Shown here piece after piece: positions 8,785 through 33,170 of a DNA stretch of 64,000 nucleotides. Position numbers and translations under genes: made by a program. Position 1 is the stretch's first letter. Each line of letters begins with the position of its first letter. Source of the DNA: Morchella semilibera (lineage: Eukaryota > Ascomycota > Pezizomycetes > Pezizales > Morchellaceae); the NCBI GenBank assembly GCA_009192285.1, contig WBVU01000017.1, positions 496,001 through 560,000 on the forward strand. Reading direction: 5' to 3'. The notes below the pieces were generated by a model. That model was not told the origin of the DNA. It worked only from the letters and a program-made list of their open reading frames with translations, and did no database searches.

Positions 8785-8849
8785 TGTGACGCAGTAGCTC
8801 GACGTAAAGTAAAAGATGACAATGATAACGCAGAAATACTCGAGGAGCA

Positions 8850-9544
8850 CATCAGCAAGCCTATTCAACCCTACCGGAGGCCCGGGAGGTGTGGGAGACG
8901 TTCGGAGACACCCGGTCAAACTTTTGATCTCCAGGGCTTACCCGCCCGTACGAGGGCCTCCTGAGCCTTTGCAGGAGCCTCCCGAGCCTTCAAGAAGGCT
9001 TAGCGGGCTCTCCTGATGCTAAGCGGCGCTCTCCTGGCACCATCTGGAGGCTTTGTTATTCTCTCCCAAGAGGCTGCGAGATATCGTAGACCTCCACACT
9101 AGTAAGAGGTTTTCGTTTAGAGAGGCTTCAGAGACGCTCTGTTATAAGTCCAAGGATGAGTAGGGCGTTCTCGTGAGGGCTCCCCAAGCCCTCCTGATAT
9201 CTCCGGAGGATTAAGCGAGATCTCCCAAGCTCTTCTGTAATCCCTGCCAATCTCCTGGGCTCTCCTGAGGGCTCGCCAAGCCCTCCTGATATCTCCGGAG
9301 ACTCTTGAAGATTAAGCCAGATCTCCCATGCTCTCCTGTAATCCCTGCTTATCTCCTGGGCTCTCCCAATATCTCCGAGGACTTTCAAACTATTACTAAT
9401 CTACTGATAACTCAAAATCCACTTTGATTATTCATACCATACATAAAAATAGGAGTCCTCCCCCAAAATCACATATCCACCGTCGAGGCGGAAGGAGGCT
9501 CTTGAAATGCCTCTCCCGCCTTCGCCATGCCCACGTCCCCCAAA
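8850..9544. repeat. Left subterminal repeat region of the Plavaka element
   Basis: No gene. It is packed with related words such as CTCCTGATATCTCCGGAG, GGGCTCGCCAAGCCC and CTCTCCTGTAATCCCTGC, repeated at 9180-9270 and 9270-9380. A related block occurs in inverted orientation at about 20310-20430 inside the element. Such subterminal arrays commonly bind transposase in CMC-type elements; that role is inferred here. Confidence 0.6.
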
Positions 9545-12107
9545 TCACTCAATCGCTGCTGGTGCCTTCCCTTTCTTCCCGCGCGCCTTTGTAGCTCTCC
9601 ATGCGGTTATATCCGCAGCTAATTGAACATCATCCTCCTGCAGGCCGACTCTGGATATAACCTCTTTAGGCCCTCTTAACTCATCGACCTAAAAGGCTTG
9701 TTAGTATATAGATAAGGCTCTTTGAGACTTTTTTATTTACCTTCTCGCGAATTGATTCTCGTATTACTTCCAGGGTGCCCTCCTGGTTCTCCTTGCTTCT
9801 CTTCCCCCATGTGCTTAACATCCTGTTATAGGTAGCTGGAGGTATCCCGAAGTCAGAAGGAGCCTTTTAGAGGGCTTGGTGCGCCTTACTCATGATATCC
9901 GGATTCTGATGCGGATTGAAGTTCAACCTTTCGATGTATATGCCTGTTTTCCAAGATCGTAAGATAAACCAGATTGCGGTGCAAACTAGGCTAATAAATG
10001 CCTGAGATATATCATCAATGAAACCAGGATCCCTGGCCCCACGCATTTTATCACCTTTGTAATATTTTAGAAATATTACTTCTACGATTTCCGGGGCCCA
10101 AAGGTGAAGCTGGCCTGTCTAGTGGCTGTCAGCACCTTGCCAAAGGCTCATAGAACGGTGGAGAGAGCTCTTACAGTATAATTATCAGGATCGCTTATAA
10201 AACGGTCATTCTCGAGGAGAAAGGACACTTTCTTACCCTTTGCCTCTGACGTTTTCTCCTCGCTCAAGCCATACAAAAGATCCTTCGACATGCAGTCCTT
10301 CACTGTAAAAACAAGGTGCGATCTCACCCGCGAACAATTGATTTGAACCTAATGGAAGCAGTTAGCGAAGGCTCACTAAGCCCTCCGAAAGGCGCGCGAG
10401 GCACTCACGTCGCTCCTAGCTAACTTAGTCATTGGTAGACTTGTATTAAAATGGTCGTTTGCCTCACTCCAAAACTGACGGACGTTAATACTAAGAGAAT
10501 CAGCTTGAGGCCAAGGCTACTCGAGCAATGTATAACGTCCGAGAAGGTATCCCATATGCTTGATTACGGACTTGGCCTCTGCTGCGTTTTCATTAATGGA
10601 GTCAGGCTCTGGTGCTCCATACTGCGAAGGCGTTGGCGTTCCATACTGCGAAGGCGTTGGCGTTCTATATGGAGATAGGGCTCTACGATATTGCTGTGGA
10701 GAGCTAGGCATGCGAAAGGGTTTGTGAATTTGTTGGGGTTGTCTCATTCTCGCGGTCGAGCTCTTGTCGCAAGGTGCTGCTGGTCGAGCAAAATGAGGAA
10801 CTTGTGGAGGCAATGCTAGCCCTTTCGGAGGCTGCTCCAGCCTTCCGTGGAGTTTCCTGCCTTCGTGAATTCACGACATGATGGTTTCCGTGCTCCGTTA
10901 TATCAGCGGTTTGACTGAGACGAGGGGGATTTAAATATCACATACCTGCATCATATTTACTGCAAAAGAAAAAGAAGCAATTGCTTCTGCCGCCAGTCAA
11001 CTAGGTCTCCTTTGAGTGGCTGCAAGAGCCCTGGCGGAGGCCACAGGGGCCTCCCTTTGTGTTTTTCCAGCTCGCGACCCCCGGTTTGATGGTGGTCGTG
11101 GCAGTGGTCGTGATGGTGGTGGTAGTTGTGGTGGTTGTGATGGGGATGGTGGGACTGGGGATATACTCCGTTCTGATAAAGGCATACTGTCACGGCACGC
11201 CTGGGATGGTCGGGAATGATTAAGCAGGGATGTCGGGTTTCTTCGGGATAAGTTATCGGGTTTTAGTATGTGGATCGGTTAGCGGAGCGGGGAGTTTCTC
11301 TTTAGGATTCTATGGGTTTCCGTGGTACGGATTAGTAATCGGTGAAATTGGAAGGTTATATATACGGCTAGGATTTCCTTTGTCTTTTCTTTCTTCTTTC
11401 CTTACGCAACCTCCTGTTGTCAACCTTTTCCTTTAGGTTTCTGTTTCTTGCGTTCTATCTGGTTCTTTCTTCCGTCGTGATATAAAAATATATACTTGGT
11501 TCTCTACTTCGCCCCGTCCTCGCTATTGGTTGTGCTCCTTGGTAACACCGTGTCCTGAACCCGTCTGCCTCGCTTAATCCCGTGGCCTCTTGTTGTATCC
11601 TGTCTTCGCGTATGACAGTGATCCGAGTTATTTATTGGTGCCTTTGCGTATACGTTGAATTCAGAGACTCCCTGTGGACTCTCTGCCCGACCCTGCTCCT
11701 GCTATAATTCCCTCGCCCTAGTACCTCGACCCCGTCCCGTAACACATATGCTGGGGCGGTGGTGCATTCTCACCTCCCGGCTCCTCGTCCTCATAGTCAT
11801 CCTCATGGATTTGAACGTAGTCTTCCTCCTCTGGATGATCATCAAAATCACTCCAGGTTTTTAGTGGGCCCTGCAACGCTCCGTTTACCAATATTGCCCC
11901 GTCTGGAAACCTTTCTGGAGGGTTCGGGGAGCCATAGTAATCGGGGTCAGTATTGAGTTCTGTAGTACCGGAATTCCTACTGCTCGCAGCACTCGAAATA
12001 CTCATCGCCCCCCTTAGACGTTTATTAATGGAGGAGGAGATCGGGGCTTGCATGCCATGTCCTTCCTCAACGGCACGCTTGTTGATTTTTGCTCTCTGCG
12101 AAGCCAT
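9545..12107 (-). pseudogene. DUF6532-like gene carried by the Plavaka element (disrupted)
   Basis: Starting at ATG 12107, an acidic then Pro-rich N-terminus runs into a solo LTR at 11188-11744. With the LTR and one duplication removed, the frame continues without a break. Downstream exons can be read at about 10813-10520, 10465-10411, 10350-10190 and 10120-9740, then 9690-9545, with GT..AG introns such as GTGAGTGCC...CATTAG. The region with SHLVFTVKDC, LLENDRFISD, APEIVEVIFLKYY and SLVCTAIWFILRSWKTG resembles DUF6532 proteins of fungal repeats; this is pattern recognition only. In-frame stops TGA 10997-10999 and TAA 9867-9869 break it, although an alternative splice could skip the second. Function unknown. 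Confidence 0.6.
11188..11744 (+). mobile_element. Solo LTR family C inside the DUF6532-like gene
   Basis: It begins TGTCACGGCACG and ends GTCCCGTAACA (557 bp). The flanks are CATAC (11183-11187) and CATAT (11745-11749), a 5-bp duplication with one change. The coding frame of the host gene continues exactly across it. Confidence 0.8.
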
Positions 12108-12521
12108 GATGGTGGTTTGTAAGGCTGGAAGAGCCTTCATGAAGGCTCTCACCTCCACTATATATTGTTCGATTCACACCATATCACCTTTGCTTTTTCT
12201 CGACAATTAGAGGTTTTTGGCGAGAAGCCTTTCGGACGGCTCGCTAAGACAGAATCAATTCTATAACTAACCTAAATAAGATAACACGATACCCAAATAG
12301 GCAACCATATATTCCCAAACATGCAAAATTGCAACTGCATCTCCAAAAAACAAAAAACAACTGCAGTCAACATCAAACCGCTTATCAGGCCTTCTAAGCT
12401 CTAATCAAGCCTTCTAAGCTCTAATCAAGCCTTCTAAGCTCCAATCAACGCCCCCCGGGCCTTCTAAACTCACACTAGGTCGCTAGAGTCCTCGGAGACA
12501 CGGTCATTGGCATCTCCGCCT
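12108..12521. repeat. Spacer with 20-bp tandem repeat
   Basis: Lies between the DUF6532-like gene and the first paralogue. At 12389-12448 the unit GCCTTCTAAGCTCTAATCAA occurs three times with minor changes. The rest holds element-specific AGGCTC words and an A-rich stretch. Confidence 0.6.
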
Positions 12522-13276
12522 TCACCATTGGGTGTGCCTAAACAGGTGATTTCTCTCGGCCTGGGTCCAAATACGTTCACGATCATAGTGACAAGACTCA
12601 AAGGTAATGGCATTTGGGTAGAGCTTTCTATAATGCTCATCGAGCCTTCTTCCAATCGCCGCGTACCTCTCGGAACGCTCATGCACCACCGCCTGGACCA
12701 TCTGGCACCCCTCATCAGTACGGGACATGGAGATATTCAAACCTGTTTGATCAACCTTATTCCTAAACATTAGCATTTCCTCCTCAACATCAAGCTCTAT
12801 TCCATCAATGTCGCCTCTAGTAAGGTGCTGATATCCTTCTAGTGAAGGTGTTTGAGGCATTTAGGTAGGCCCAGTAACGATTGCCGAAGGCCTGTGAAGC
12901 ACCGGACAGAGCCTTAAGGGTTTTGCCTCTGTGGTTTTGAACCAACCTTCCAGCTCTTCAGAATCTCCGATCTGCACATATTTCGGATTTGGGGGATAGG
13001 GTGCCTGCCCCCGGGGGGCCAAATTGGACAACGCCCCGTAGAAGGCTCGGAAAGCTCTCGCGGGGCTCCCTGGAGCTGCTGGTGGGGCCCGCTTTATTGC
13101 AAGTCTTTCTAAATCTTGCATAGACAACTCCTGAAGGATGTTAATAAAGGGGATAAGCGATCCGGGCCCGTACTAATCATAGTGGCGGTATATATCGCTG
13201 GTGATGCCTGTAACCCTTTCTGGGTCAATAATATGTATGGTTATTGCCGGCCTGTAGGGTATTCCCAAGGCCTGCC

Positions 13277-13910
13277 TGTGACGGAGTAACCCGGCGCAAA
13301 GAAGAAGATGACAATGATGACGCAGAGGAACTCGAGGAGCACAGTGTACTCGACGAGGGGGCCGATGAAGACAGGGACACCGCCGGGCGGGCACAAGCAC
13401 AGGCACCGGCGAAGACAAAGGCAAGAGCAAGGGCACAAGAGCACAGAGCAGGGAGAATGAGGACCGAAGGGACCTCGACGAGAACGATGAAGGATACTAA
13501 GGGTTTCCTCTTGTCAGAGGATCGAGTCTTTGGTACGAGAGGCTATGGCTTTAGAAATAAGAGTAGATTCCTATGTACTGAAATAACAGGAAGACGAGAC
13601 AGAGAGGAAAGAGAAAAAGAACTAAGGAAAACATCTATCCCCGCTATTTAACACACCTCCTCCACTAGTCCGCTATGACTCACACTCTTGCTCATAGACC
13701 CTCATAGAAACCCGTCGCTACCACACCTCGTAATCCTCCCCACCATCTCCGCTATTCTTCATTACCAATCCATCACGCCATCGAACCTCCTAGAACCTAA
13801 TGACGACAGCCTCCGCCTTGTACTCCCCACTCTCGCTTATTATTACCTTAACAACCACAATCGTGCATCGCCTACCAGACTGTCGGGACGACTGCCAAGA
13901 CGCCGGGACA
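13277..13910 (-). repeat. Gypsy 1 3' LTR
   Basis: 634 bp, TGTGACGG...CGCCGGGACA on the plus strand. I see no differences from the 5' LTR. Open frames within it are products of low-complexity LTR sequence, not genes. Confidence 0.95.
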
Positions 13911-13931
13911 GATCAGGTCCCCTCCAAGGGC

Positions 13932-16900
13932 CTAGCTCCTGATAGGCCGAGGTTTCGAAGGATATTGATCGTGAAATACTCTCCTAAAATCAGGACTATG
14001 CTCCAAATCACCCGAAGGTTGCCAGGACGCTTCTTCATATCCAACATATCTAACCAAGTACTCCACCCGTCGCCCCCTCTTCCGCGAATCCAATATCTCC
14101 GCTACTTCCCATTCAGTTTCTCCTTCAACTTCCACCGGTGGGGGTGGTTCAACAATTTGTCCAGGAATAGAATCCCCAACTGTCGGCGATAATAATGAAA
14201 CATGGAATACCGGATGTATTTTCATAGAGGCAGGTAATTCCAACTCGTAGGCATAAGGGCTCACAATTCGTTTGACCGGGTAGGGACCAATTTGTTTCCA
14301 GTCAAGTTTTTTCGAGGGTCGTTTTGTTTCGATATTTCGAGTCGAGAGCCAGACAAAATCGCCAACCGCATATCGAGGTGCTGGAGTCCGGTGTAAGTTG
14401 GCCATCTCCTCCTGTATCTTCTGCGCCCTGAACATCTCACTTTTCAGAAAATCAAACACCTGGGACATCTCCCGTGCCAACCCATTGGCCTGGTCCTCGT
14501 TCACCGTCTGTCCGTGCTGTAAGGGTCCGAATGTCATCCTCGGGTGTCTCCCATAGTTAGCCTGAAAGGGGGACATATTAGTAGTTTCAGAGATGTGATT
14601 ATTGGTAGCAAATTCAGCCAGAGGTAAAAAATCCACCCAGTTATCCTGTTGATATGATACATAACTACGGAGGTACTGTTCCATAATCGCATTGGTCCTT
14701 TCTGTTTGTCCATCGGTTTGAGGATGAAATGCTGTAGAGTAACGAGGGGCAATCTCCAGCCGTTCGCAGAGAACTTTCCAAAATTCAGCAGTAAACTGTG
14801 TCCCTCGATCGGAAACAATAGTCTCCGGTAGCCCATGTAACTTCCATACCTGCTCCAGGTATAGACGAGACAGATCCCTGGCGTTAACATTCTCCGTCGT
14901 GGGAATCAAATGTTTCATCTTTGTCAACCGATCCACCACTACCAGAATGGCATTAAATCCATGACTCTCCGGAAGTCCCGTTACAAAATCCATCGTGACA
15001 TCCGTCCAAGGTCCCTTGGGCACTAATAATGGGCGCAAAACTCCTTGTAGGGGATTATGGTTTGTCTTGCTCCGCCGACAGGTATGACAATTCTGGACAT
15101 AGCGGTCTGTATATTTCCGCATGGTTGGCCAATAATATTCCCGGCTGAGAAGTTCCAGAGTCTTTGATCGTCCAGGATGTCCAGCCGAGGGTTTATCATG
15201 ATACTCTCGTAGCAGATAGAGCTTGAGTTCATCAAGGTCAGGGACATAAAGTGTATTCCGATAAAGCAACAACCCCTCCTCGCTCTCTTTGCATTCAGCT
15301 AATGAAATCTCCTTCGATTGTCGAACGCCCTCTCGGAGCATAGATAAAATCTTGTTTGGAAAGCTATCACTCTGGTAAGCTTTATTAAACAAATCAAGTA
15401 CGGGAGACGATCCTTCAGCGGGTTCATTTGACAAAGAGCCCGCTAACAAACTTATCTTTGCATCTAAGTTCCCCCTCTTTAAAACTACTCGACTTTGTTG
15501 TTCCAATCTCTCATCCCCTTCCTTCGGTAAATCCTTAGGCCTCCTGGTCAAAATATCAACCTTCCTCCCCTGCTTCCCGGGCCTGTATTGAATAACGAAA
15601 TTAAATCGAGACAAAAACTCCGCCCAACGGGTTTGACGCCGGTTCAGCAATTTAGTTGACATAAAATACTCGAGATTGCGATGATCTGTGAGCACCCTTA
15701 CTTGAAATTGAGCTGTCTCCAGATGAGGTCTCCATTCTTCGAAACAGCGAATAATAGCCAGCAACTCTTTATCGTAAATTTCATAGTTGCATTCCGCAGG
15801 CGAATGTGTCTTGGAAAAGAAGGCGACCGGATGAAGTATTCCCTCGTCGTCGCGTTGTGATAATATTCCCGCCGACACATAATCTGACGCATCGGTTTCC
15901 ACAATAAATTCTTTCTCAGGGTCAGGATGCATCAATACGGGGGCAGTGGTGAAGGCCCTCTTGAGTTTCTGAAAAGCTTGTTCAACCTTTTGAGTCCACT
16001 CGAATCGTACATGCTTTTTCGTCAAAGCGGTTAAGGGCCGAGCCACTCGAGAGTAGGCATAGATAAAGCGTCGATAGAAATTGGCAAACCCAAGAAATTC
16101 CTGAATCTCCTTCACTGTTTTTGGCGCCTCCCAATCCACAATTGTTTGTACCTTAGCAGGATCCATCTTCATCCCCCTGGAGTCAAAATCATACCCAAAT
16201 ATTTGGTTTCTTGTACGCTAAATTCGCATTTCTCTGGTTTTAGGTGGACCTCGTTGGCTTCCAGGGCTTCTAGCACTTGCCGTACATCCTGTTGGTGTTG
16301 CTCCAATGTCTCTGAGTAGATAAGAATATCATCCAAATAGGCCGTCGCACAGCGGTCCAAAAAAGGCCGAAGAATATCATTAATCCAACGTTGAAAAGTA
16401 GCAGGAGCATTCGTCAACCCAAAAGGCATTACCAAATATTCCCAATGCCCATACCGGGTTCTAAAAGCCGTCTTCCATTCATCCCCCTCTTTAATCCTAA
16501 TCTGATTATAGCCCCAACGTAGATCCAGCTTTGTAAAATAGTTCGCTCGTGCCAAATTGGCCATAGTTTCTGGTGTAAGGGGAAGAGGATATCGATCCTT
16601 AACCGTAATGGCATTTAGCTTTCGATAATCGACACACAAGCGTAAGGAACCATTAGCCTTTTTAACAAATAACACCGGAGCACCAGCTGGCGAATTACTA
16701 GACCTGAGAAATCCTTTTTGCAAATTATCGGCCAGATAATCCCTCAACGCCTTCAATTCTTCCCGTGACATACTATACATGGGACCAAAGGGTGGGACTG
16801 TTCCTTCCTGGAGTTTAATCTCATGGTCATAAGGACGGTGTGGTGGTAGTCTAGAGGCATTGGTCTCATCAAACAGCTGTCGAAACCGCTGATAGTCAAT

Positions 16901-17527
16901 TGGAATCGTTCCATCAGGGTTGGCAGGCATTTCCAATATTTTATTGACAGCATAGAGGGTAGTCGAATAAATTTGCACAGTAGGGTCTTGCGACAGCTTC
17001 TTAAACGACCGAGGAGTAATTGCCGAAATATTGGTAACCGGCCTTTCTGGCGGTGAAGTCGAAATTCCTCGAGCAACAATAGGTTTGTGGTCGGCTATAC
17101 AGTGTTCAAGACACACTGATGATTGAAAACGAATCTCATTCCTTCCGCTATCAATCAAAACTCCATGCTTCCTCAGCCAAGGTATTCCCATCACAATCGG
17201 GTAATGCCCCAACTTGGTAACAAAGAACGGACACTCCTCCACATGTCCATTAATTTCCAATTCCAACGTCACCTTCCTGGTCACCTTCCCTGACTCAATA
17301 GGCCTTCCATCAATTACATCAATCTCCCTCTCAGTCCTCAAATTCTTCATCTTTAATTCATGGCGGCGCACAAAGTCTTCATCAATAAATGCATATCCCG
17401 ACGCTCCAGTATCAATCAAGGCATATGTGGGTACAATGGATTTTTTATTTTGTGAAATAGAACATACTACAATCAATTGATTCCCATCCATCTCCCCTTC
17501 TGATACTGAAAACGTTGAAATAGACAC
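13932..17527 (-). pseudogene. Gypsy 1 pol polyprotein (one frameshift)
   Basis: It lies in the -1 frame relative to gag, overlapping its end, so expression probably needs frameshifting or reinitiation. The order is aspartic protease (LIDTGASG), reverse transcriptase with YLDD, RNase H (ETDASDY), integrase with an HHCC zinc-binding part (CHTCRRSK) and a DDE core (MDFVTGLP, VSDRGTQF, HPQTDGQTER), and a C-terminal chromodomain (VEYLVRYVGY, SWQPSGDLEH). The frame breaks at about 16170, where a G run reads five G instead of the six needed to join PGG to MKMDP. With one base added the whole pol is open. It may be a real mutation or an assembly error. Confidence 0.9.
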
Positions 17528-17565
17528 CTGAGAGAAAACCTTTGGAGGTCCCTGAGCTATGCCGC

Positions 17566-18807
17566 CTAGGCCAGGGACGAATCTTTTAACTCCTCCTCGT
17601 CCGACAATACCTCCTCTTCCTTTTCCTTCTTTTCCTTTCTTGCTTCCAACAACGCTCCCTTCATCCTGGGTGCTGCCCTTCCCGAGGGCGAAAGTTTACA
17701 ATCTCTAACCAAATGTCCAACCCCCCCGCAGTAATAGCAGCGATTCTCCGCACGACGTGCCTCCCTTTCTCTGGGATCCGGGCGACGATAACTATTAGAC
17801 AAGTCCATGGGAACAGCTCCCCCAGGAGTATAGGAAGGGTGGGCCGCTGGCGCAGCATTCTTTGATGGTGGTTGGGGTGGTCCTCGTACGACTGGGGATG
17901 TTGCTGGTGCAACGGGGGGACGAGGAGCAAAGGGACGCGGAGCAGGAGCACTTGGAATCTGAAAACGAAATCTCCCCATCCTGGCCTGTAGTGCCCGTTG
18001 CTTATTATCAAGACGTTGAAGAAACAGCCCGCAGTCCTTAATTGTAGTTGGTGTTTCATTCTGAATCATCAGGGCCATTAGGTTCTGGTTAAGTCCTTCC
18101 AACAAACATTCAATTTTAGCCGCTTCGTTGAACTCAGAGTCGGCAGCATATCGCTGAAACTCTGTAAAGTACTTAGAAAAGGTGCGTTGGCGCTGCCTGA
18201 TCTCCCTCAAATTTCGAGCAGTAGTGGCGGCGCGGTCTGGATCCCCAAAAGCATTATCCAAAATTTCAAAAAACTCCGCCATGGAATCGAGAGCGATTCC
18301 TTCATCTGTAATATAAACTAAAAATTGATCCGCCGCCGGTCCTTCCAGTCGAGAAATAGAATACGCAAGTTGTTGAGCCGCGGTAGGAAAGCGATCCAAA
18401 TTAGCCGTGAGCTTAATCTGAAGTTGTCTCTGGAAGGTCCTGAGAGTCTTGCGATCGCCCCAGTATTTCTCCGGGTCGGGTAACTTCTCGGATTTGGATG
18501 GCTTGGTTAAGTCGTCGTGGAGCTCCTCTAAACCTCCTTTGACTCCTTCTTGCAGCTTCTTGATCTTAGCCCGTAGTCCCTGGATTTCTTTGTGGAACTC
18601 GGCCCGGCCTTGTTCGGTTTCGGAATGATGGGTGGTGATGTCGACCGCATATTGCTGGACCCCTCCGTGCGCTCTTTGGAGGAGGGCATACGCTTGCTTC
18701 GCTTCTTCCGTTGCGGCGGGGTCCACTTCAGGGTGAGCGACAAAGAACCCTTCGAGATCCGTATGGAGCTTTTGATAATTAAATGCATTGGTAGCAGGGG
18801 CGGTCAT
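17566..18807 (-). CDS. Gypsy 1 gag
   Basis: 413 residues from ATG 18807. A helical capsid-like region carries YWGDRKTLRTFQRQLQIKL and the usual gypsy Gag pattern around RQRQRTFSKYFTEF. Near the C-terminus is one CCHC zinc knuckle (CYYCGGVGHLVRDC), followed by a basic then acidic tail. It forms the particle that packages the element's RNA. The frame is intact. Confidence 0.93.
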   Translation of the reverse strand: MTAPATNAFNYQKLHTDLEGFFVAHPEVDPAATEEAKQAYALLQRAHGGVQQYAVDITTHHSETEQGRAEFHKEIQGLRAKIKKLQEGVKGGLEELHDDLTKPSKSEKLPDPEKYWGDRKTLRTFQRQLQIKLTANLDRFPTAAQQLAYSISRLEGPAADQFLVYITDEGIALDSMAEFFEILDNAFGDPDRAATTARNLREIRQRQRTFSKYFTEFQRYAADSEFNEAAKIECLLEGLNQNLMALMIQNETPTTIKDCGLFLQRLDNKQRALQARMGRFRFQIPSAPAPRPFAPRPPVAPATSPVVRGPPQPPSKNAAPAAHPSYTPGGAVPMDLSNSYRRPDPREREARRAENRCYYCGGVGHLVRDCKLSPSGRAAPRMKGALLEARKEKKEKEEEVLSDEEELKDSSLA

Positions 18808-18856
18808 GGTGAACTGTGGTGCGAGGAACTCGGACTGTGCTAGTCGAGTAAGGATG

Positions 18857-18868
18857 GTCTCGTCTTAG
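18857..18868 (-). promoter_or_regulatory. Gypsy 1 primer-binding site, probable self-priming
   Basis: Directly after the 5' LTR the sense strand reads CTAAGACGAGAC. The 10 bases AAGACGAGAC are the exact complement of GTCTCGTCTT inside the LTR (19183-19192 on the plus strand reads AAGACGAGAC), about 50 nt after a TTAAATA box and hence near the expected RNA start. This matches the Tf1 type of self-priming rather than a tRNA primer. I saw no TGG-type tRNA site. Confidence 0.7.
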
Positions 18869-19502
18869 TGTGACGGAGTAACCCGGCGCAAAGAAGAAGA
18901 TGACAATGATGACGCAGAGGAACTCGAGGAGCACAGTGTACTCGACGAGGGGGCCGATGAAGACAGGGACACCGCCGGGCGGGCACAAGCACAGGCACCG
19001 GCGAAGACAAAGGCAAGAGCAAGGGCACAAGAGCACAGAGCAGGGAGAATGAGGACCGAAGGGACCTCGACGAGAACGATGAAGGATACTAAGGGTTTCC
19101 TCTTGTCAGAGGATCGAGTCTTTGGTACGAGAGGCTATGGCTTTAGAAATAAGAGTAGATTCCTATGTACTGAAATAACAGGAAGACGAGACAGAGAGGA
19201 AAGAGAAAAAGAACTAAGGAAAACATCTATCCCCGCTATTTAACACACCTCCTCCACTAGTCCGCTATGACTCACACTCTTGCTCATAGACCCTCATAGA
19301 AACCCGTCGCTACCACACCTCGTAATCCTCCCCACCATCTCCGCTATTCTTCATTACCAATCCATCACGCCATCGAACCTCCTAGAACCTAATGACGACA
19401 GCCTCCGCCTTGTACTCCCCACTCTCGCTTATTATTACCTTAACAACCACAATCGTGCATCGCCTACCAGACTGTCGGGACGACTGCCAAGACGCCGGGA
19501 CA
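18869..19502 (-). repeat. Gypsy 1 5' LTR
   Basis: 634 bp. Contains a TTAAATA motif followed by a pyrimidine-rich stretch (TTCTCTTTCCTCTCT) where transcription may begin. It looks identical to the other LTR. Confidence 0.95.
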
Positions 19503-19943
19503 CTGCCAGAACTCCGGTGTGGTCTGCAGTTCGTTTGTGCGGGCAGGAGGTGCCCCGGAGGTGGGTGTATCTTTAACTTCATCATCTGCGCCCCCCAAAG
19601 CCCCACCATGGCGTTGGACTGTCCTGTTTCTCTTCTGGGATAGATCGATAATGAGGCGGAGGAGGGCTGCTTGGATCTTTATAGAGTCCTTTGAAGCCTT
19701 TGCTGACCATGTGGTCTTTAGCGCCTTGATGGCCCTGTGTTCCATGCAAAATTGACACAGATTGTTGAATAATTGTTCGCCCGAGGTGACCTTATTAACC
19801 CACCCTATTCTTACCATCTCGTCCGCGAGGTCGCTACAGAGAGCCTTATAGATAGCATCTTTTCCAGTCAATTGTAGGATTCTTTGGCAGTCGTGGATTG
19901 TCGTGCACTTGTACGTAGCAGCTGGTCTCCTGCGTGGTGGCAT

Positions 19944-20737: not shown

Positions 20738-21557
20738 AATCCAAAAGCTCTATATCATTAATATCGTCCTCAGTCAGGTAATCCCATCTCTCTGGTGAAG
20801 GCGTTTGGGGCCTTTGAGTAGGCCCAGCTACGATTGCCGAAGGCCCATGAAGCACCGCACAAAGTCTTAAGGGGTTTGCCTCTGTGGCCCTGAGCCAACC
20901 TTCCAGCTCTTGATCGTCTCCGATCGGTACATATTCCGGATCTGGGGGATAAGCTGCCTGCCCCTGGGGTGCCGAATTGGACATCGCCCCGTAGAAGGCT
21001 CAAACAGCCCTATTAGGGCCCCCTGGAGCGGCCGGTGGGACTCGCTTCAGCGCGAGGGCTGCTAAATCATACATAGACATCACTTCGAGAATGCCGGTAA
21101 ATGGCGTAAGCGACGCAATCCCATACCAGTCGTATGGACGGTACGTATCGCTTGGGATGGCAGTAGCCTTCTCTGGGTCAATAACCTGTACGGTTATTGC
21201 GGGCCTGGGAGGTATTCCTAAATTCTCCCAGGACTTGAGTACCATCTTGTAATATCTCTCGTTATCCACCGCACTTTCCAAAGCTTCGTCATGTCGTTTG
21301 TCTATCCTTTTCCTCTTCTGTGATAGATCTACAATGAGATGGGCTAGGGCTGCTAGGATCTTTATAGTGTCCTCTGAAGCCTTTTCTAACCACTTGGGCT
21401 TCAAATTCGTGAGGGCCTTGTGATCCATGGCATATTCGCACAAATGATTGAATGAAGAATCACCCGACCTGGATTTATTCACCCACCCTGTCCTTGTCAT
21501 CTCATCGGCGAGGTCTTTGCGTTAAGCTTTATAGATACCATCCTTATCTAAGTGCAA

Positions 21558-22332: not shown

Positions 22333-22370
22333 AAGATTCTCCGGTAGTCGTATGTGGTCTGGCAAATGTA

Positions 22371-22507
22371 CATCAGCAAGACTTCATTTGTCTCCTGATG
22401 TCTCCTGAGCCTCAGGAGACTAAAAAAATATCCAGGAGTCTCAGGAGACTCTCAGGAGACCTAGGAGACTGTTGGGTGACTCCAGTCACAAGTTGAGTTT
22501 GCTGATG
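22371..22507. mobile_element. 137-bp MITE in paralogue B
   Basis: CATCAGCAAGACTTC...GTTTGCTGATG with TA on both sides. Removing it plus one TA joins Lys-Tyr-Ile-Cys codons that correspond to the Tyr-Lys-Cys region of paralogue A. Confidence 0.92.
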
Positions 22508-23055
22508 TACTTGGCGGGCTGTTTGTATCGTGGTGCCATTTCAGGGGCCTCCTTGGTCTTTTGGACCTGCTTCCTAACTTGTGGGTCTAACCTGGGGGGT
22601 AGGGAACGTCGAGTCTTATGGGTAGGTGTCGTTGGGGGGGCGCCAGGGGCCACCGATAAGCCCTTGGGAGCCCTGGATCCTGAAGGCCCGGATCCTGAAG
22701 GCTCAGATCCTGGAGGGCGTAGAACGGGGCTTTTCGGAGGCTCCTCAGATGTTTTCGACTTTCTCTTCTGGGTGCTCCGGGTTATTTCTTCCTCTGACTC
22801 GATCTTTATGTAGGATGCAACACTACTGCTAGAGGCTGAACTAAGGCTGGAGTCCGAGCTCTCACTATCACTGTACTGCCTGGGGATTAATGGTCCGACC
22901 TCCTGTTTTTTGGATGCGTTTTTATCACTATGGGAGGATATGCGGCTTCGTTTTTGGCCTTGTTTAGGGCTTGCCGGGGTGTTGTCGGGGGTGTTTGGTG
23001 AGGGGTGCGGTTTGGATACCGACTTATAGAAAGAGGAAAAAAAGGCCTACTGTAT

Positions 23056-23484: not shown

Positions 23485-23522
23485 ATGAGATCACGATGTC
23501 CATTTTGCATACGGAGCTACGC

Positions 23523-24099
23523 TGTTACGGAGCAACACGGAGACAACAGACAAGGGAGCCGAGGTACACAACCGAGGCGAGAACGGGAACGGGGATGCGG
23601 GACGAGGGCAAGAGAACTTAACCGAGGAGCAGAGTTGTTGGGCAGAGGGTCCAGATGGCCTCTCTGACGAAGACGTGGAGACGAAGATACCAGTAGACGA
23701 CGCGGACTACGGTCATGGACTATGGATGAGCGAAACGAGACGAGGGCGAGGACGAAGCAAAGCGAGGACGAAGCGAGGTACTATGGAAGACCCTTCAGGT
23801 CTTGGCACGACTATGAGTATGACGTAATATATTTCGAACTAAAGACACGAGACGAGAACGAAACTAAACCGTAGGGTTGATAACAGGAAGAACACGTAAG
23901 GAAAGAAAGAGAAAGAAAAGAACAAAGGAAAGATCCGTAGCAACGTATATATACTCCTCCTAATCCCTGTACAATCATGACTCATCACATCGTGTAACGG
24001 AAACCCATAGAAACTCCAAGAACCCAAAAGAAACACCGCGATCCGAACTCCATTCCGAGATATCCTTCTCCCCTAAGAACTCCGTGGTATGCCGTGATA
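23523..24099 (-). repeat. Gypsy 2 3' LTR (family B)
   Basis: TGTTACGGAGCAACACGG...TATGCCGTGATA. Almost identical to the copy at 28956. Confidence 0.93.
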
Positions 24100-24119
24100 G
24101 ATTAGGCCCTCCTTCAGGC

Positions 24120-27100
24120 CTAACTCCTGGTAGGCCTAGGTTTGCGTGGGTAGCTATCGTGAAAGTCTTTAACCAAATTGGGGGCATGCTCCAGATCCTC
24201 GGGGGGTTGCCAGGATGGTTCATCATAACCAAGATACCGAACCAAATACTCCAACTTCCCATAACGCCGACGAGAGTCTAAAACCTGTTCCACTTCCCAC
24301 TCTTGTTCGCCTTCGATTTCTATTGCTGGGGGGCGGCGACTGTAATTGACCAGGGACGGGGTTACTTGGTGCAAGGGACAGAAGTGACACATGAAAAACG
24401 GGGTGAATTTTCATTGAAGCGGGAAGATCGAGTTCATAAGCATAGGGGCTAACCATCCGCTTAATCACATAGGGGCCAATGCGTTTCCAGTCGAGTTTCT
24501 TCGAGGGTCGTTTGGTTTCGATATTCCGAGTCGAGAGAAAAACTTCATCTCCAATGGCATACCTAGGGGCGGGGATTCTATTCCGATTTGCTGCGTCCTC
24601 ATGAATCTTCTGAGCCCGACCCATTTCGTCACGAAGAAACTCATAGACCTGTGCCATAGTCCTGGCCATACCATTCGCCTGATCCTCATTGGTTGTCTTT
24701 CCATGCTGTAGCGGGGCAAAGGACATGCGAGGGCTCCTCCCATACATCAGCAAGATTTCATTTGTCTCCTGATATCTCCTGAGCCTCAGGAGACTCAAAA
24801 GATCTCCAGGAGTCTCAGGAGACTCTCAGGAGATCCGGGAGACAGTTGGGAGACTGCAGTCATAAGTTGAGTTTGCTGATGTAGTTCGCCTGAAACGGAG
24901 ACATCCTAGTGGTTTCGGAGACATGATTATTAGTTGCAAACTCTGCCATCGAAAGATACTGGGTCCAATCGTCCTGTTGATACGAAACATAGGCTCGGAG
25001 ATACTGTTCCATGATAGCATTAATCCTTTCCGTCTGCCCATCTGTTTGAGGGTGAAAAGCGGTACTATAGCGAGGAGCAATTTCGAGGCGAGCACATAAA
25101 GTCTTCCAAAACTCGGCAGTAAACTGCGTGCCACGGTCTGAGACGATAGTTTCTGGGAGTCCATGAAGCTTCCAAACCGAATCAAGATACATCGTAGCCA
25201 CATCCCTAGCATTTGCCTCTTCCGTACAGGGTATAAAGTGGCGCATCTTTGTCAGACGGTCTACCACAACCAGGATCGCGTTAAACCCATTGCTTTCCGG
25301 AAGTCCTGTAACAAAGTCCATTGACACATCGGTCCAGGGGCCTTTGGGTACGGCAAGAGGTCGAAGAACACCTTGAAGGGCATTGCGAGATGCTTTGCTA
25401 CGAGAACACACATTGCAATTCAGAACATAGCGGTCAACATATTTCCTCATATTCGGCCAATAATAATTCCGGCTGAGGAGTTCTAGGGTCTTGGCACGGC
25501 CTGGATGTCCCGCGGAAGGCTTATCATGATGATCTTGCAAGAGGCGAAGCTGAAGACCATTGAACTCGGGAACGTAAATAGCCTGGCGATATAAGAGGAA
25601 CCCGTCCTCGGTCTCCGTACATTCGGCAAGGGAAATCTTCTTCGAATGTTTGGTACCATTACGTAGCATCATTAAAACTTGGTTCGGAAAACTATCCTCT
25701 TGGTAAGCTTGGATCAACAACTCCTTCACGGTAGACATTCCTTCAGCGGGTTCATTTGTCAAAGAACCCGCCAACAAACTTAGCTTAATCTTTGATTCCA
25801 AATTCTCTTGCTTCAATATCACCTGCGACTGATGCATCAGGCGCTCGTCCCCTTCCTTAGGCAAATCTCTTGATCTCCTGGTGAGTGCATCCGGCTTCCC
25901 CCCTTGTTTCCCTGGTCGGAATTGAATAACAAAATCAAAACGCGACAAGAACTCGGCCCAGCGGGTTTGGCGGCGGTTCAACAGCTTCGTGGACATAAAA
26001 TATTCCAGGTTCCTATGGTCACTCAATACCTTAATCGGAAAACGAGATCCTTCCAAATTCGCACGCCATTCCTCAAAACTCCTAACCACTGCCAACAGTT
26101 CCTTGTCGTAAATCTCATAATTGCATTCGGCTGGAGAATGTTTCTTGGAAAAGAATGCCACTGGGTGCAAGATTCCATAATCATCGTATTGGGACATAAT
26201 GCCCGCAGAAACATAGTCGGAGGCATCGGTTTCCACAATCACTTCTTTTTCAAAATCAAAGTGAGCCAGAATCGGGGCTGAGGTAAATGCATCCTTGAGC
26301 TTCTGAAACGCTGCTTCTGCCTTTAGGGACCATTCAAACTTTACGTTTTTCTTGGTCAAAGCGGTGAGCGGAGCAACCACTCGAGAATACGCATAGATAA
26401 ATCGCCGATAGAAATTTGCAAATCCTAGAAATTCTTGGACTTCCCGGAGTCTCGTGGGGGTTTCCCAATCCTTGATCGTTGATACCTTACTAGGGTCCAT
26501 CTGAATACCTTCGGGGGTAACAATCAATCCGAGATACTTGGTCTGTTGCACGTAAAACTCGCATTTCTCAGGCTTAAGGTGGACACCATGAATCTGAAAA
26601 ACTTTCAAAATCTCCCGAACATGTTGCTTATGTTCCTCCAGAGTCTCGGAGTAAATTAATACATCATCGAGATATGCCGTGGCGAAATTATCCAAATAGG
26701 GCCGTAAAAGATCATTAATCCAATGTTGAAACGCAGCAGGGGCATTGGTAAGTCCGAAAGGCATAACATTGTATTCGAAATGACCATAACGGGTCCTAAA
26801 AGCCGTTTTCCACTCGTCGCCCTCCTGAATTCGGATCTGATGGTAGCCCCAACGAAGGTCCAACTTGGTATAATACCTAGCTTTGGAAAGACGCGACAGT
26901 GTTTCCGGAATAAGGGGCAGCGGGTGACGATTCTTAACAGTAATCTCATTGAGTTTCCTGTAGTCCACGCATAATCGGAGAGAGCCATCAGATTTCTTAA
27001 CGAATAGTACGGGAGCGCCAGCGGGAGATTCTGAATAACGAATAAACCCCTTTGAGAGGTTTTCCGTAATGTAATCTCGAAGGGCCTGTAGCTCTGCCCT

Positions 27101-27913
27101 GGACATTCCATAAAGCGGACCAAACGGGGGAGCCTTTCCATCTTGTAAGACTATTTTCAAATCGTGGGGACGGTGTGGTGGCAGGGCGGCGGCATCGGAT
27201 TCCTTGAACAGCGATATGAATTCTCGGAGTTCCTGAGGTACATGAGCGAGGGGGTCTATTGTCTGTTTCCCCACCAAGGCTTCATCTATCGCACGAATTG
27301 AGGCGCAGAAGAGTTTATTCTGTCGGCGCCGAGCAAGACCTACGAAGGGAACGGCCCCAATGGCCGCAATCTGAATGGCCGGGGCGTCGGGGAACGAAAC
27401 CGAGATTCCTTTTGCCGTAACCGGAGCATGGGAGCGAGAACAGTTCCGAACGCAGAAGTCAGAGTCAAAGATGATCTTATTCGTCTTTGGTCTAATAGCC
27501 AAGTCGTGATGTCTCATCCAAGGGATACCCATTACTAGTGGGTAATGTCCCAGCTTCGTGACAAAAAACGGGGCCAGTTCTTGGTGTCCATTAATATCCA
27601 GGGATAGCTTGACCATATGCGTAATCTTCCCTGATTCCACCAGCCTGCCGTCGATTACCTCGAGCAAGCGTGATGTCTTCAGGGGAACCGGAACAAGACC
27701 ATGCTGCAAAACGAACCCCTGGTCAACGAAAGCGTAGCCCGACGCACCTGTAATTATCAGGGCGTGAGTAGCAATGGAGTCGGCGGCATCTTGGGCGACG
27801 GAGCAGGAAACAACGAGAGACTCCTCAGACATCCTGTCTTCGGAGACGGCGGCAGCGGAGAGAACAAAAGTAGGTGACGGGACTAGCCCCTTTGGTGTGT
27901 CAATTTTTACCAA
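24120..27913 (-). pseudogene. Gypsy 2 pol (frameshift, MITE insertion)
   Basis: Open in the -1 frame after gag from about 27930 to 24882, with protease-like, reverse transcriptase (YLDD), RNase H and integrase (HHCC and DDE motifs) parts. The protease motif reads LIITGASG where gypsy 1 has LIDTGASG, so the catalytic Asp is missing. A MITE splits the frame at 24745-24881; without it FQANYGRSPRMSF is continuous. A further indel near 24345 separates the C-terminal chromodomain (LEYLVRYLGY) from the rest. The polyprotein is therefore inactive unless complemented. Confidence 0.9.
24745..24881. mobile_element. 137-bp MITE in gypsy 2 pol
   Basis: CATCAGCAAGATTTC...TTTGCTGATG flanked by TA (24743-24744, 24882-24883). 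Removing it restores the integrase reading frame exactly. Confidence 0.95.
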
Positions 27914-28893
27914 AGGGGCTGATCTTTTAACGCCAGCTTCGGGGTTACTAAATCAACTGGTGCTTTACGCCAGTTGTCAGCGGTGCGAAAATCCTGGGAG
28001 CGGGGGGCGAGGTAGCGAGGTTTCGAGGTCTGGGCGTCGGGGCGAGATGGCTTCCCGGTAGCCTTCAAGTTGGAGGCAGCAAGAGGCAGGCGGCGGCGAA
28101 GGTTCGCAATAGTGGCATCTGCTTCACCAAGAGCTTCCTGGTGTAGGGCCAAACGGTAACGGAATTCCTCCTTCTCAGCTGTGATGGAGGCTACTTCTTC
28201 CTGGAGACTCTCGACGGTCTCAACTGTCTCATTCTGGGCCTCGCACATACGAGACCAGAGATCAGCAACCTTTCGTTCAGCTGCATCGAGTTCAGATTCG
28301 AGGTTCTCGATAACCTCGTCATGGGCCGTACATACGGCTGGTTCTTCGGGGACAGAGACGGCAACATCGGCGGGAGCGGTCAAAGCGGCGAGGGCTTCTG
28401 CGATGAGGGTATGGGCCTTGGTTAGTTCATACCCGAAATCCTCCTCAACAGGGCCAAAGGTTTCCAAGAACTCGGCGAGTCTCTCGGTCAGGGTGCATGA
28501 GGCGGGAGTATCAAAGGGGCGGCCAATAGTATGCTGAGCGAGGGCGGGGACCCTGAGGCTACGAATGATGGCTTCAGAGTCGTGGGCCGGGCAGGAGTCG
28601 TCGGTGGTGGGGGATCCAATATGGAGCCTACCCGGAGCAGGTTGAGTAAAAGTAGCCTTTGCCCAGTGGGCATCGGCACGTTTGAGACCGTGGGCGAGAG
28701 CGTACTGACGGAGGCGGTAAACGTGGGGGTCTGACCCGAGGCGATTGCCGAGGTCGAACCAATAGGCCTGGGGGACGAGAGCAAGGTGACAGTACCCCTT
28801 CCTTTCTGGGAAGAAGCACTCGAGGGGGCCGGGGGAAAAGAAGACAGCGTTGGGGCAGTCCCCCATGGGGACATCCCAACTAAGGTCGGTCAT
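27907..28893 (-). CDS. Gypsy 2 gag
   Basis: 328 residues from ATG 28893. It has a coiled-coil-like middle (ESELDAAERKVADLW and onward) and a basic C-terminus, and lacks the CCHC knuckle found in gypsy 1. It overlaps the pol frame at its end. Assignment as Gag rests on position between the LTR and pol, since similarity to gypsy 1 Gag is not evident. Confidence 0.75.
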   Translation of the reverse strand: MTDLSWDVPMGDCPNAVFFSPGPLECFFPERKGYCHLALVPQAYWFDLGNRLGSDPHVYRLRQYALAHGLKRADAHWAKATFTQPAPGRLHIGSPTTDDSCPAHDSEAIIRSLRVPALAQHTIGRPFDTPASCTLTERLAEFLETFGPVEEDFGYELTKAHTLIAEALAALTAPADVAVSVPEEPAVCTAHDEVIENLESELDAAERKVADLWSRMCEAQNETVETVESLQEEVASITAEKEEFRYRLALHQEALGEADATIANLRRRLPLAASNLKATGKPSRPDAQTSKPRYLAPRSQDFRTADNWRKAPVDLVTPKLALKDQPLW

Positions 28894-28943
28894 TATGACC
28901 GGAGCGAGGCGAGACGAGGGCGTTGTGTAGGTCGGCGGAGGGG

Positions 28944-28955
28944 ACGTGTTCTTAG
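28944..28955 (-). promoter_or_regulatory. Gypsy 2 primer-binding site, probable self-priming
   Basis: The sense strand after the LTR reads CTAAGAACACGT. AAGAACACGT is the exact complement of ACGTGTTCTT in the LTR (29321-29330 on the plus strand). Same geometry as gypsy 1, including the CT spacer, but a different sequence. Confidence 0.72.
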
Positions 28956-29532
28956 TATTACGGAGCAACACGGAGACAACAGACAAGGGAGCCGAGGTAC
29001 ACAACCGAGGCGAGAACGGGAACGGGGATGCGGGACGAGGGCGAGAGAACTTAACCGAGGAGCAGAGTTGTTGGGCAGAGGGTCCAGATGGCCTCTCTGA
29101 CGAAGACGTGGAGACGAAGATACCAGTAGACGACGCGGACTACGGTCATGGACTATGGATGAGCGAAACGAGACGAGGGCGAGGACGAAGCAAAGCGAGG
29201 ACGAAGCGAGGTACTATGGAAGACCCTTCAGGTCTTGGCACGACTATGAGTATGACGTAATATATTTCGAACTAAAGACACGAGACGAGAACGAAACTAA
29301 ACCGTAGGGTTGATAACAGGAAGAACACGTAAGGAAAGAAAGAGAAAGAAAAGAACAAAGGAAAGATCCGTAGCAACGTATATATACTCCTCCTAATCCC
29401 TGTACAATCATGACTCATCACATCGTGTAACGGAAACCCATAGAAACTCCAAGAACCCAAAAGAAACACCGCGATCCGAACTCCATTCCGAGATATCCTC
29501 CTCCCCTAAGAACTCCGTGGTATGCCGTGATA
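28956..29532 (-). repeat. Gypsy 2 5' LTR (family B)
   Basis: 577 bp, TATTACGG...CCGTGATA. The second base (A here, G in the other copy) is one of the few differences between the pair. Confidence 0.93.
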
Positions 29533-32331
29533 TACGCCAATGCTGGTAGTTTCGATCGACATCTCTCAAAAGTCCACCTATCGCGGACCTGCGGGTGGTA
29601 CAACAGGCAGCTTTCAGGGACTCCCGTTGAGGGCTCGCGGAGCCTTCCTGAAGGCTCAGGAGGTCCCCACGAGGGTGGACATTTGAACATACCAGATAAA
29701 AGCGAATCCGATACTGAATCGAATGATGATCATACTTTGGGATCCACGCGGTTCAATCTAGCAACTACCATATACGAGGGTGCAGGGGAGCCTCTTTTCA
29801 CCGCAATGGGATATGATGAAGGCTCGGAAAGCCTTTTGATCAACTCATGGCAGCCTTTCGAATCAGCAGAGGAATTTCAGTTATCGCGCTGGTTCCTACA
29901 ATCGGATGTATCTCAGGGTCAAATAGACAATTTCTTCCGCACCGTACGCCCTCTACAAGGCTCCTACAGCACTGGTAGAGGCTTCGCACGCCTCCTCGAC
30001 GAGATGTCGTCTATGGGGGGTTAGGAAAAGAGAGCTGGATACGCTCAGAGGTCGAAATGGGCGGGCAGAAAATTCCTTACTACTACAGGGACCCTATGAA
30101 TATAGTGCGTTTTCTTCTGGGACAACGTGCATTTAGGGAGTCCTTGGTGTATTCACCTATTATGGAATACAATAAAATGGGGGAGCGGATGTATGGGGAG
30201 ATGCACACGGCAGACTGATGGTGGGAGATGCAGGTTCGCAACACTTACTTAGAAGGCTCAGGGAGCCTCCGCTAACCCCTCACAAATGTTATAGAATATC
30301 CTTCCAGAAGGATCAACGGTGGTGCTAGTAATATGTGCATCAGACGGAACACACCTCACTAATTTCAGTGGTGACAAGAAGGCTTGGCCAGTATACCTAA
30401 CGATTGGCAATATCACTTCGGACACACGAAATAAACCCTCTAATTACGCGATCATACTCCTAGCTCTACTGCCAGTGCCACCAAAGGTTGGAGTGCGTAC
30501 GAGCAGACGCCATTGGGAGAGCCAGATGGTCCTTCACCAGGTCCTCTCTGAGGTTCTTGAAGGCCTTCAGGGCCCTGCGGAAAGGGGTGAGCTTATAACA
30601 TGCGCTGATGGCTATGTGCGCCTATGTTATCCGATACTATGTGCATGGATTGCGGATCAACCAGAACACGCCTCGCTGCTAAACCTCAACAATCAGGCCT
30701 GCCCTGGGTGCGAAAGTTGATTTCAAAAGCCTAGGGAGCCTTCAAGAAAACCCACCACGCATTCAGGAGCGATATATCGAAATGGTAGAGCGTTATGAGG
30801 AGGATACGTCGGATACAGCAACCGTTGAATACCTAGTGTCGAAATCCTTCAAAACTCTGTACAATGCTTTGTGGGCCTTGCCGAAGGCTCAGGGGTATGA
30901 TCTTCACAAGTCAGATATGTTGCATAATATTTATCTCGGCCTATTGAAACATATGATGGAATGGATTCAATCGTTTTTGAAAAAACACAATCGCCTAAAG
31001 AATTTTGATCGGGCTTGGGCGTCCATTAAGCCTTACCCAGTGCTTGCTGTACCAAATAAGGCTTATCGGGCAGCTACTCAATGGCAAGGTAAAGAAATAC
31101 GTCATCTCGGCCGGATAGTTCTAGGAGCCTTTGCAGTGGCTCTTTGGAACCCCCCAAAAGCTTCGCAGAGCGACTTCGGGAGATCCTTGAGGTGTGTTCG
31201 GTCACTAATCGATTTCCACTTGATGGCACAGTACACTACGCATACAAAAGAAACACTAGACTATCTTCAAGGGTATCTAGAAGATTTCCACAAGTATAAG
31301 GATGTGTTTCTGGAATTTAGAGCCAATAAACGAACAAGGAAAGAGGCAAAGAATCGAACAAAGGTGCTGCAAGGCTCGGGAAGCATTGACAGAGGCCTGG
31401 CGGAGCTTGAGGAAATTTGCGAGGCTTCTCATTTCAACTTCATTAAAATGCATCTTCTTTCACACTTCCGGGGGCATGTAGAGCGATTTGGTGATGTTCC
31501 AATGTTTTCAACCGATGTGAGCGAGTTAGCTCATAGGCAACAAATTAAGATGGCTTATGCAGCCTCCAATATGGTCGACGCAACAGTTCAGATTCTCGGT
31601 TACCACTCAAGACGTATGGCTATAGAGATACGGGTCTTAAATCTAAAAGATATCGTTGTCAGTCTTCCAGAACATTACGAGGGCCTCCCAAGCCATTGAG
31701 AGAGCCTCCGGAGCATGTTGGAAGTATTCAAAAACGAGGACCCACAAAGGACAAACGAAAGATTCCTAGACGATGATAAACACCCGGAACCTAGGATGTC
31801 GACCCCCGACGGTGGACCCCACATATTATCTGATATCGCCGATATGATTAAAATCAATAGAAGAACACTAGCAAAAGCGGTGTCGGAATATGGTCAGGGC
31901 CTGAGCCGGGGAGAATAAGGCTTATTGAGCCTTCTGGAGTGCCCGGTGGGGTGCTTTAAGTGCCTACAGGTGCCAGTATCAATTTTTCAGAAGCCTGACA
32001 GTTACGAGATACACAATATACGGTGTACGGGAGAGGCATTATTTAGGAAAAGGTCGACTCGAAATGATTGGGCATGGATTAAGGTGGCCACAACGGAGCC
32101 GTGGGGAGCCTTTCAGGGACGCCTACCAGGGCTTGTACGAGCAATATTCAAGATACGTGACAGTATATCGACGAAAACATATCAGCTTTGTCTTGTAGAG
32201 CTACTGGAAGCCAAGGATAGGGGTCTTCCAGACGGCTCACACGGTCTTCTTAGAGTTGCGAGGCGCTCTCGGCAAAGGTTTTGGGTAGTTAATATCAGTA
32301 GTGTTTTGGGAATGGCTCATTTGTTCGAGCT

Positions 32332-32468
32332 CATCAGCAAGACTTCATTTGTCTCCTGATGTCTCCTGAGCCTCAGGGGACTCAAAAAATATCCAGGAGT
32401 CTCAGGAGACTCTCGAGAGACCTGGGAGACTGTTGGGAGACTCCAATCACAAGTTGAGTTTGCTGATG
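32332..32468. mobile_element. 137-bp MITE in the Plavaka transposase
   Basis: CATCAGCAAGACTTC...GTTTGCTGATG flanked by CT (32330-32331, 32469-32470). Removal joins the C-terminal codons for HLFEL and GQGQW in frame. Confidence 0.93.
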
Positions 32469-32517
32469 CTGGGACAGGGTCAATGGGTTGTGAACACGAG
32501 GATAGATTTGAGAACGT

Positions 32518-33142
32518 AGAATGAGTTCGATATATAGTGACAATGTCTCTGGTGGCCTGGGGAAAGGTACAAGAGGCCTTCATAAAGGCTCGAGTGACTT
32601 CAGCTGGCATAGAATGTATTTAGAATAAAATTAACATGATAGTAAATGAAACAATATGATCTAGATCGGAGATTCATGAGGGCTCCAGAACCCCTTATAA
32701 AGGCGCAGAGGGCCAGAAGCTCCCGGGCGGCGGGGTAGCCACAAAGAGCTGCATATGTCTCATGCGTGAAAATAGGTTGTTGGTGGCCTCCGAAACTTAC
32801 TAATCAAAGCTCGGAAGGCCTCTGGAAGGCTCAGGAAGCCCTCTGGAAGGCTCCGGAGGCGAGAAACAATTAGCGAGGTGTCAGGAGAGGAGGGTAACAG
32901 AAGGCTCAGGGAGCCCTCTAGAAGGCTCAGGAGGCTACATACAATTAGCGAGGTGTTAGGAGAGGTAAGGAGGGTAACAGAAGGCTCAGGAGACTCTCTA
33001 TCAGGCTCGGGAGGCTATCGGGAGGCTCGGGAGGCAACAAATAGTTAGCGAGGTTATTAGGAGAGACAGGAGGGTAATTGCCTTGGCAACGGCCTCCAGA
33101 GACCCAGTCAAGCCTCTGGAGAGAGTTTGAATCTTGCTGATG
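32518..33142. repeat. Right subterminal repeat region of the Plavaka element
   Basis: From about 32815 to 33085 a unit of roughly 80 bp is repeated about three times: AGAAGGCTCAGG, CTACATACAATTAGCGAGGT, then AGGAGAGG and GGAGGGTAACAG. The element ends in TTGAATCTTGCTGATG. No gene. Confidence 0.7.
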
Positions 33143-33170
33143 CACAGCCAACGCGACGAGGTCACCGACT

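Follow-up and report, generated by a model that had tools for sequence, protein, structure and literature searches.

A block of 24,293 bp in the genome of the ascomycete Morchella semilibera is almost certainly a single Plavaka-type transposon that inserted once into a long terminal repeat (LTR) with a 2-bp target duplication. It occupies positions 8850–33142 of a 64,000-bp stretch of contig WBVU01000017.1 (assembly GCA_009192285.1, positions 496,001–560,000), referred to in the following as the window, and is described here with the orientation of its transposase set as the plus strand. A motif search of the window placed the 10-bp inverted repeat CATCAGCAAG at both ends (8850–8859 on the plus strand and 33133–33142 on the minus strand), with the dinucleotide CA immediately outside (8848–8849 and 33143–33144), as had been claimed in a preliminary description of this DNA. 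When the two flanks were rejoined with one CA, they formed an LTR, and of its 22 matches to the loci compared, seven spanned the junction without a gap; these loci partly overlap, so that the seven matches are not seven independent places. The search for empty sites was limited to selected loci in part of the genome, and when the masked window was used, none of five matches met the junction-spanning filter. The earlier claim that the split LTR rejoins base for base thus held, and the comparison gave a site that fits one insertion, rather than ends derived from different insertions.

By themselves, the 10-mer ends are weak evidence for a single element, because the 10-mer is so frequent both in the window (20 occurrences, compared with 0.12 expected) and in the genome (651 + 599 = 1250 occurrences, compared with 24 + 56 for the reversed pattern), partly because a family of 137-bp miniature inverted-repeat transposable elements (MITEs) has the same ends. 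The proof is supplied by other copies in the 56.8-Mb, 23-contig genome that was searched, where the window corresponds to C14:496001–560000. The search for copies with the same ends, which the preliminary description had proposed, returned an uninterrupted copy of 10,661 bp at C1:1925528–1936188, flanked by TC on both sides and collinear with the window copy from end to end. The collinear blocks start at 8850 and end at 33142, with five gaps between them. Blocks one and two overlap within a tandem repeat, of which the window copy has a shorter version, and in the blocks from 9169 on, 9899 of 10,093 aligned bases are identical. The 33-base left end of the large element, which differs from the MITE end, was found 22 + 16 = 38 times in the genome, and the rightmost 653 bp recurs close to transposase matches elsewhere. 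The lack of any other copy linking these ends to a Plavaka gene had been named beforehand as an outcome that would speak against a single transposon; instead, copies were found in which this left end and this right end enclose the same genes.

Twenty pairs of family ends were identified by eye from the match lists, each on one contig, in the correct orientation and 1–28 kb apart. The outer 2-bp flanks were equal in 11 of these pairs, compared with about 1.25 expected if the four letters are presumed equally frequent. The matching dinucleotides were CA, TC, TA, AA, AC and GC, and this variety shows that there are no fixed target letters. Empty sites were sought for 19 of the family pairs, leaving out the pair at C23:1766536, which has a truncated right end and unequal flanks, as well as for second-family copy A, described below; they were recovered for 7 of the 12 pairs with matching flanks. 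An insertion site in unique sequence has no sister, so a missing empty site is not counter-evidence. The 2-bp target duplication of the family is genuine. A 326-bp sequence at C4:58667–58992 bears both ends of the large family and looks like an internal-deletion form between the full element and the MITEs. The contig pairs C9/C10, C12/C13 and C21/C22 give many of the same matches at nearly equal coordinates and look allelic or duplicated, and copy counts for the genome are therefore inflated.

The transposase gene lies on the plus strand in two parts. Its first codons, which include two cysteines of a C2H2 finger, are at 23485–23522, as placed from the open frames and the collinear block, and the remainder, placed from PF18759 matches, is at 29533–32530, the end being approximate; an LTR retrotransposon at 23523–29532 splits the finger-coding start. 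The presence of a Plavaka transposase between the ends, as originally claimed, was borne out by Pfam, with matches of the intact copy to PF18759 in two frames (4.5e-54 and 2.4e-14) and scores of 138.7 bits (30292–30741) and 48.7 bits (30039–30239) for the window copy. PF18759, the Plavaka family, was the sole Pfam family above the cut-off in the transposases scanned. Residues D105, C136/C139, H386/H390 and E410 were invariant in seven of seven transposases; the first D stands outside this summary, with the ASD/SSD reading identical in the six of those seven sequences that were inspected for it. The N-terminal C2H2 finger was seen by eye in the present family; for the second and third families, Pfam matched it weakly, with scores under the cut-off. 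A search for transposase homologues found 392; among the 120 listed, 12 carried an organism name, nine of them Morchella and the others Tuber and Kalaharituber, and the best organism-named match among those listed was a Morchella importuna protein with 81% identity. Because its frame is broken, the window copy is predicted to be unable to encode an intact transposase any more and to be inactive.

All accessory genes are on the minus strand, opposite to the transposase. Gene 1 (9545–12107, an approximate model) probably has several exons, of which that at 9870–10118 matches PF20149 (DUF6532; 29.2 bits in the window copy and 4.8e-8 for the same exon in the intact copy), and is broken by an insert at 11188–11744. 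Gene 2 is split by an LTR element into a C-terminal part at 12470–13276 (match C14:508642–509274) and an N-terminal part at 19503–19943 (match C14:515491–516015). The C-terminal part of its paralogue, gene 3, is at 20739–21557 (match C14:516721–517566, with 62% identity to the intact copy's gene 2), and the N-terminal part, severed by MITEs, is at 22508–23046; in the intact copy, a single open frame spans both. The open frame ending at 23046 was also considered as a separate fourth accessory gene, which was rejected, since by comparison with the intact copy it is the N-terminal part of gene 3. The three further genes of the preliminary description are thus one gene with DUF6532 and the tandem paralogues 2 and 3, which are about 62–63% identical to each other. 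The element belongs to a four-gene family with a conserved accessory gene set.

In the gene-2 family, 3 of 10 aligned members gave a Tri-helical match (best 7.7e-4), and a relative in the second family gave a Tri-helical match of 5.1e-4; this may be taken as a hint to the identity of genes 2 and 3 and not as an assignment. Eight homologous proteins of gene 2 were found, of which the four with organism names are all from Morchella. An AlphaFold model of gene 2, made from a 10-sequence alignment, was too poor to be used for fold comparison, and a sequence search of solved structures with the gene-2 alignment gave a best E-value of 0.14, regarded as chance. Genes 2 and 3 were also considered as TET/JBP enzymes, for which Pfam gives no support: PF12851 (TET/JBP) was found in none of 10 element proteins scanned at E ≤ 1, a scan in which not every exon was covered, and a very diverged form would still be compatible with this result, as the model might miss the diverged PE type. 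Genome-wide, there were 19 TET/JBP matches at E ≤ 10, four of them above the cut-off, and the nearest lies about 65 kb from a PF18759 place by coordinates.

Related families in the same genome have a similar organization. The second family is represented by C20:2864861–2875537 (copy A) and C1:2878603–2888841 (copy B), which are 98–99% identical over two main aligned blocks and end in CATCAGCAAG and CATCAGCAAA. Copy A is flanked by TC on both sides, and its transposase shares 62% identity with the one encoded by the intact first-family copy. It is followed by a relative of gene 2 (31% identical) and a DUF6532 match, arranged and oriented as in the first family. At L092:5487–6698, a 403-amino acid open frame that by eye resembles a Harbinger-type transposase overlaps with the far end of a second-family copy. 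The third family, on C17, has a 1028-amino acid open transposase frame, a divergently oriented DUF6532 gene and the left end CATCAGGAAA; its right end was sought on C17 and not found.

The pairing of DUF6532 with Plavaka extends over the genome. All 128 PF18759 places were merged into 71 Plavaka loci, and 39 of the 51 PF20149 loci lie no more than 15 kb from one of these. As such neighborhoods make up 3.4% of the genome, chance would give 1.74. For 31 of the 51 the nearest Plavaka locus is head to head; some DUF6532 loci are counted twice in these figures through the near-identical contig pairs C9/C10 and C21/C22. An earlier count with 70 hand-picked Plavaka places out of the 128 likewise gave 39 and 31 of 51. 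The DUF6532 loci of the window family were near a Plavaka locus in 14 of 20 cases and head to head in nine, and the corresponding numbers for the remaining loci were 25 and 22 of 31. The 12 unpaired loci include the window copy itself, where nested insertions enlarge the distance beyond 15 kb. Clustering in regions rich in transposable elements could raise the proximity count but would not account for the orientation. A homologue search with the third-family DUF6532 protein returned only two proteins. In the literature searched, exclusive of the supplements of PMC12730594, no link between DUF6532 and Plavaka was found beyond one paper that lists both domains.

Both ends of the element carry subterminal repeats. 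The left subterminal region (8850–9400, plus strand) contains TCTCCTG repeats in one orientation, and direct repeats are present in the right subterminal region (32540–33142, plus strand). In counts made on the intact copy, the left 850 bp has 13 TCTCCTG on the plus strand and none on the minus strand, and the right 850 bp has 0 and 3, respectively. The terminal motif of the second family, GGCGCA, was found 15 times in the ends and once in the middle. All 28 of the MITE-like elements examined carried TCTCCTGA and none carried GCGCC, which ties the MITEs to the window family. Their 2-bp flanks matched in 25 of 28 cases, compared with 5.25 expected, two of the 28 sharing one end. The 28-base left end of the 137-bp MITE occurs 455 + 414 = 869 times in the genome with up to two mismatches, and the reversed control gave 0. 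Two MITEs in the window, at 33171–33307 and 59457–59593, have unequal flanks, CT before and GA after, with GA preceding the CT; they may represent a variant whose left end is 2 bp longer and whose duplication is GA.

We propose a mechanism in which a DDE transposase with an N-terminal zinc finger would cut at the CATCA..TGATG ends, and the element would be rejoined at a new place by a 2-bp staggered cut. The same machinery would also mobilize the short elements, numbering in the hundreds, with the same ends and repeats. More tentatively, the family-specific subterminal repeats (TCTCCTGA here) might be recognition sites for the transposase or for an accessory protein. In CACTA elements, subterminal repeats are read by TNPA.

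Several observations weigh against this picture. The flanks were unequal in 9 of the 20 family pairs, as they were in second-family copy B (AT and TA), and at the selected loci searched, an empty site was recovered for none of the eight unequal-flank pairs. The 2-bp duplications sought in other copies are seen in the 11 equal pairs and not in these nine, whose ends are probably decayed, recombined or mispaired. TCTCCTG also occurs in the middle of the intact copy (0 plus, 5 minus), and the tandem repeat raises the left count. The recognition role suggested for the repeats is drawn from their position and sharing, and transposition of the family would be a deduction from sequence. The abundance of the 10-mer would also suit an arrangement in which the two ends are separate MITEs that bracket unrelated Plavaka fragments. 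However, the left 33 bases are unlike the MITE end and have only 38 occurrences against 869, the right 653 bp recurs by transposase matches, an end-to-end collinear copy exists and the empty site is restored, making this explanation exceedingly improbable. That the sister copies are assembly duplicates of one locus is contradicted by their differing flanks. The subterminal repeats are a CACTA-like feature, and they count in favor of assigning the element to CACTA/EnSpm or, as a Zisupton-type element, to KDZ rather than to Plavaka. In addition, Plavaka and EnSpm have catalytic motifs in common, according to the passages cited from PMC12730594. We nevertheless consider such an assignment very unlikely: PF18759 alone exceeds the Pfam cut-off in the transposases scanned, and the CATCA..TGATG ends with a 2-bp duplication fit the PlavakaB type in the same passages, where Zisupton is described as making 8 bp.

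A further explanation concerns the accessory genes of this single Plavaka element. They might be captured passengers without a role in transposition, as DUF6532 and genes 2 and 3 have no known function, the Tri-helical score of the second-family relative (20.9 bits) is below the cut-off of 27, and the gene-2 fold model has a mean predicted local distance difference test score (pLDDT) of only 37.1. On the other hand, the divergent DUF6532–transposase pair recurs in families whose transposases share 62% and 39% identity with that of the window family, and such long co-retention suggests that the pair is of use to the element; on balance, we regard the passenger explanation as unlikely. One tentative possibility is that DUF6532 is a dedicated Plavaka partner in a divergent module of this fungus, with the transposase facing one way and DUF6532 and a Tri-helical-like protein facing the other, and that the partners bind the family-specific subterminal repeats and so choose which MITEs are moved. 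The conserved DUF6532 partnership is the less ordinary part of the element and is worth following: the steady pairing with Plavaka gives DUF6532 a testable role and, if it is true in other fungi, this domain, which appears in surveys of fungal genomes, would be carried mostly by transposons.

The five gaps in collinearity (11188–11744, 13277–19502, 21561–22504, 23523–29532 and 32332–32467) add up to 13,873 bp, in agreement with the earlier estimate of about 13.9 kb of nested sequence in an element of about 10.4 kb; the third gap includes about 38 element bases between two MITEs. Five insertion places thus add about 13.9 kb to the 10.4-kb element. The insert at 11188–11744 is 557 bp long and solo-LTR-like, with TG..CA ends and the flanks CATAC and CATAT. 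The LTR retrotransposon at 13277–19502 (minus strand) has LTRs identical at 634 of 634 positions and a CTGCC duplication, and contains three long open frames of 746, 452 and 413 amino acids. That at 23523–29532 (minus strand) has LTRs 99.65% identical over 575 bp and a TACGC duplication, and contains a MITE at 24745–24881. Both are young, as their LTRs are identical or nearly so. The other nested elements are a MITE of inferred extent at 21558–22332, flanked by AA on both sides and itself broken by an LTR-like stretch, and 137-bp MITEs on the plus strand at 22371–22507 (flanks TA/TA) and 32332–32468 (flanks CT/CT). Relative to the intact copy, the changes in the window copy number 58 C>T, 53 G>A, 20 A>G and 16 T>C. 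CpG sites account for 45 of the 111 changes of the C-to-T type and CpA sites for 20, as raw counts against one reference copy, without correction for dinucleotide frequency. Repeat-induced point mutation (RIP) as the cause of decay is disfavored, and the substitution pattern suggests methyl-cytosine decay more than CpA-directed RIP.

The comparison with Plavaka/KDZ families, also proposed beforehand, placed the transposase in Plavaka by Pfam; a KDZ placement did not stand, since the newest source, in the passages cited, has moved Plavaka from KDZ to the CACTA/EnSpm-like CMCT group (Kojima 2025, PMC12730594). The same passages describe Plavaka reconstructions from Agaricomycotina, some with TET/JBP, and PlavakaB elements with CATCA..TGATG ends and 2–3 bp duplications. 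As in PlavakaB of Agaricomycetes, the element described here has a Plavaka transposase, C(2)C and H(3)H motifs, CATCA..TGATG termini and a 2-bp duplication (CA/CA in the window, equal flanks in 11 of 20 pairs), and it fits each PlavakaB feature examined, namely termini, duplication and motifs. It differs in its ascomycete host and in carrying DUF6532 and one or two unnamed genes instead of TET/JBP, for which no gene was detected in the element proteins scanned. Its ends are not the TGT..ACA of PlavakaA, nor is its 2-bp duplication the 8 bp of Zisupton (KDZ). With CACTA/EnSpm, it shares the DDE layout, CA..TG ends, a short duplication, subterminal repeats and more than one gene, but the duplication is 2 bp and not 3 bp, the ends are CATCA and not CAC, and the Pfam family is a separate one. 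The 137-bp MITEs have the same ends, TCTCCTGA repeats and 2-bp duplications as the large element but are too short for its genes.

Plavaka has been reported from Rhizophagus and, in the passages cited, is said to have been absent from public repeat databases (PMC11075540). The DNA elements listed for M. importuna in the cited part of PMC6164635 are CMC-EnSpm (12/0), Harbinger, Tc1-type, hAT and Helitron, and unclassified repeats make up 7.36% and 7.65% of the two assemblies. Set beside that list, those repeats and the database absence, the present element illustrates how easily Plavaka-type elements are overlooked. The analysis yields a full-length, boundary-checked ascomycete Plavaka family with hundreds of short relatives bearing its ends. 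It is a new family of a known Plavaka kind, with ends, duplication and transposase that match the published type.

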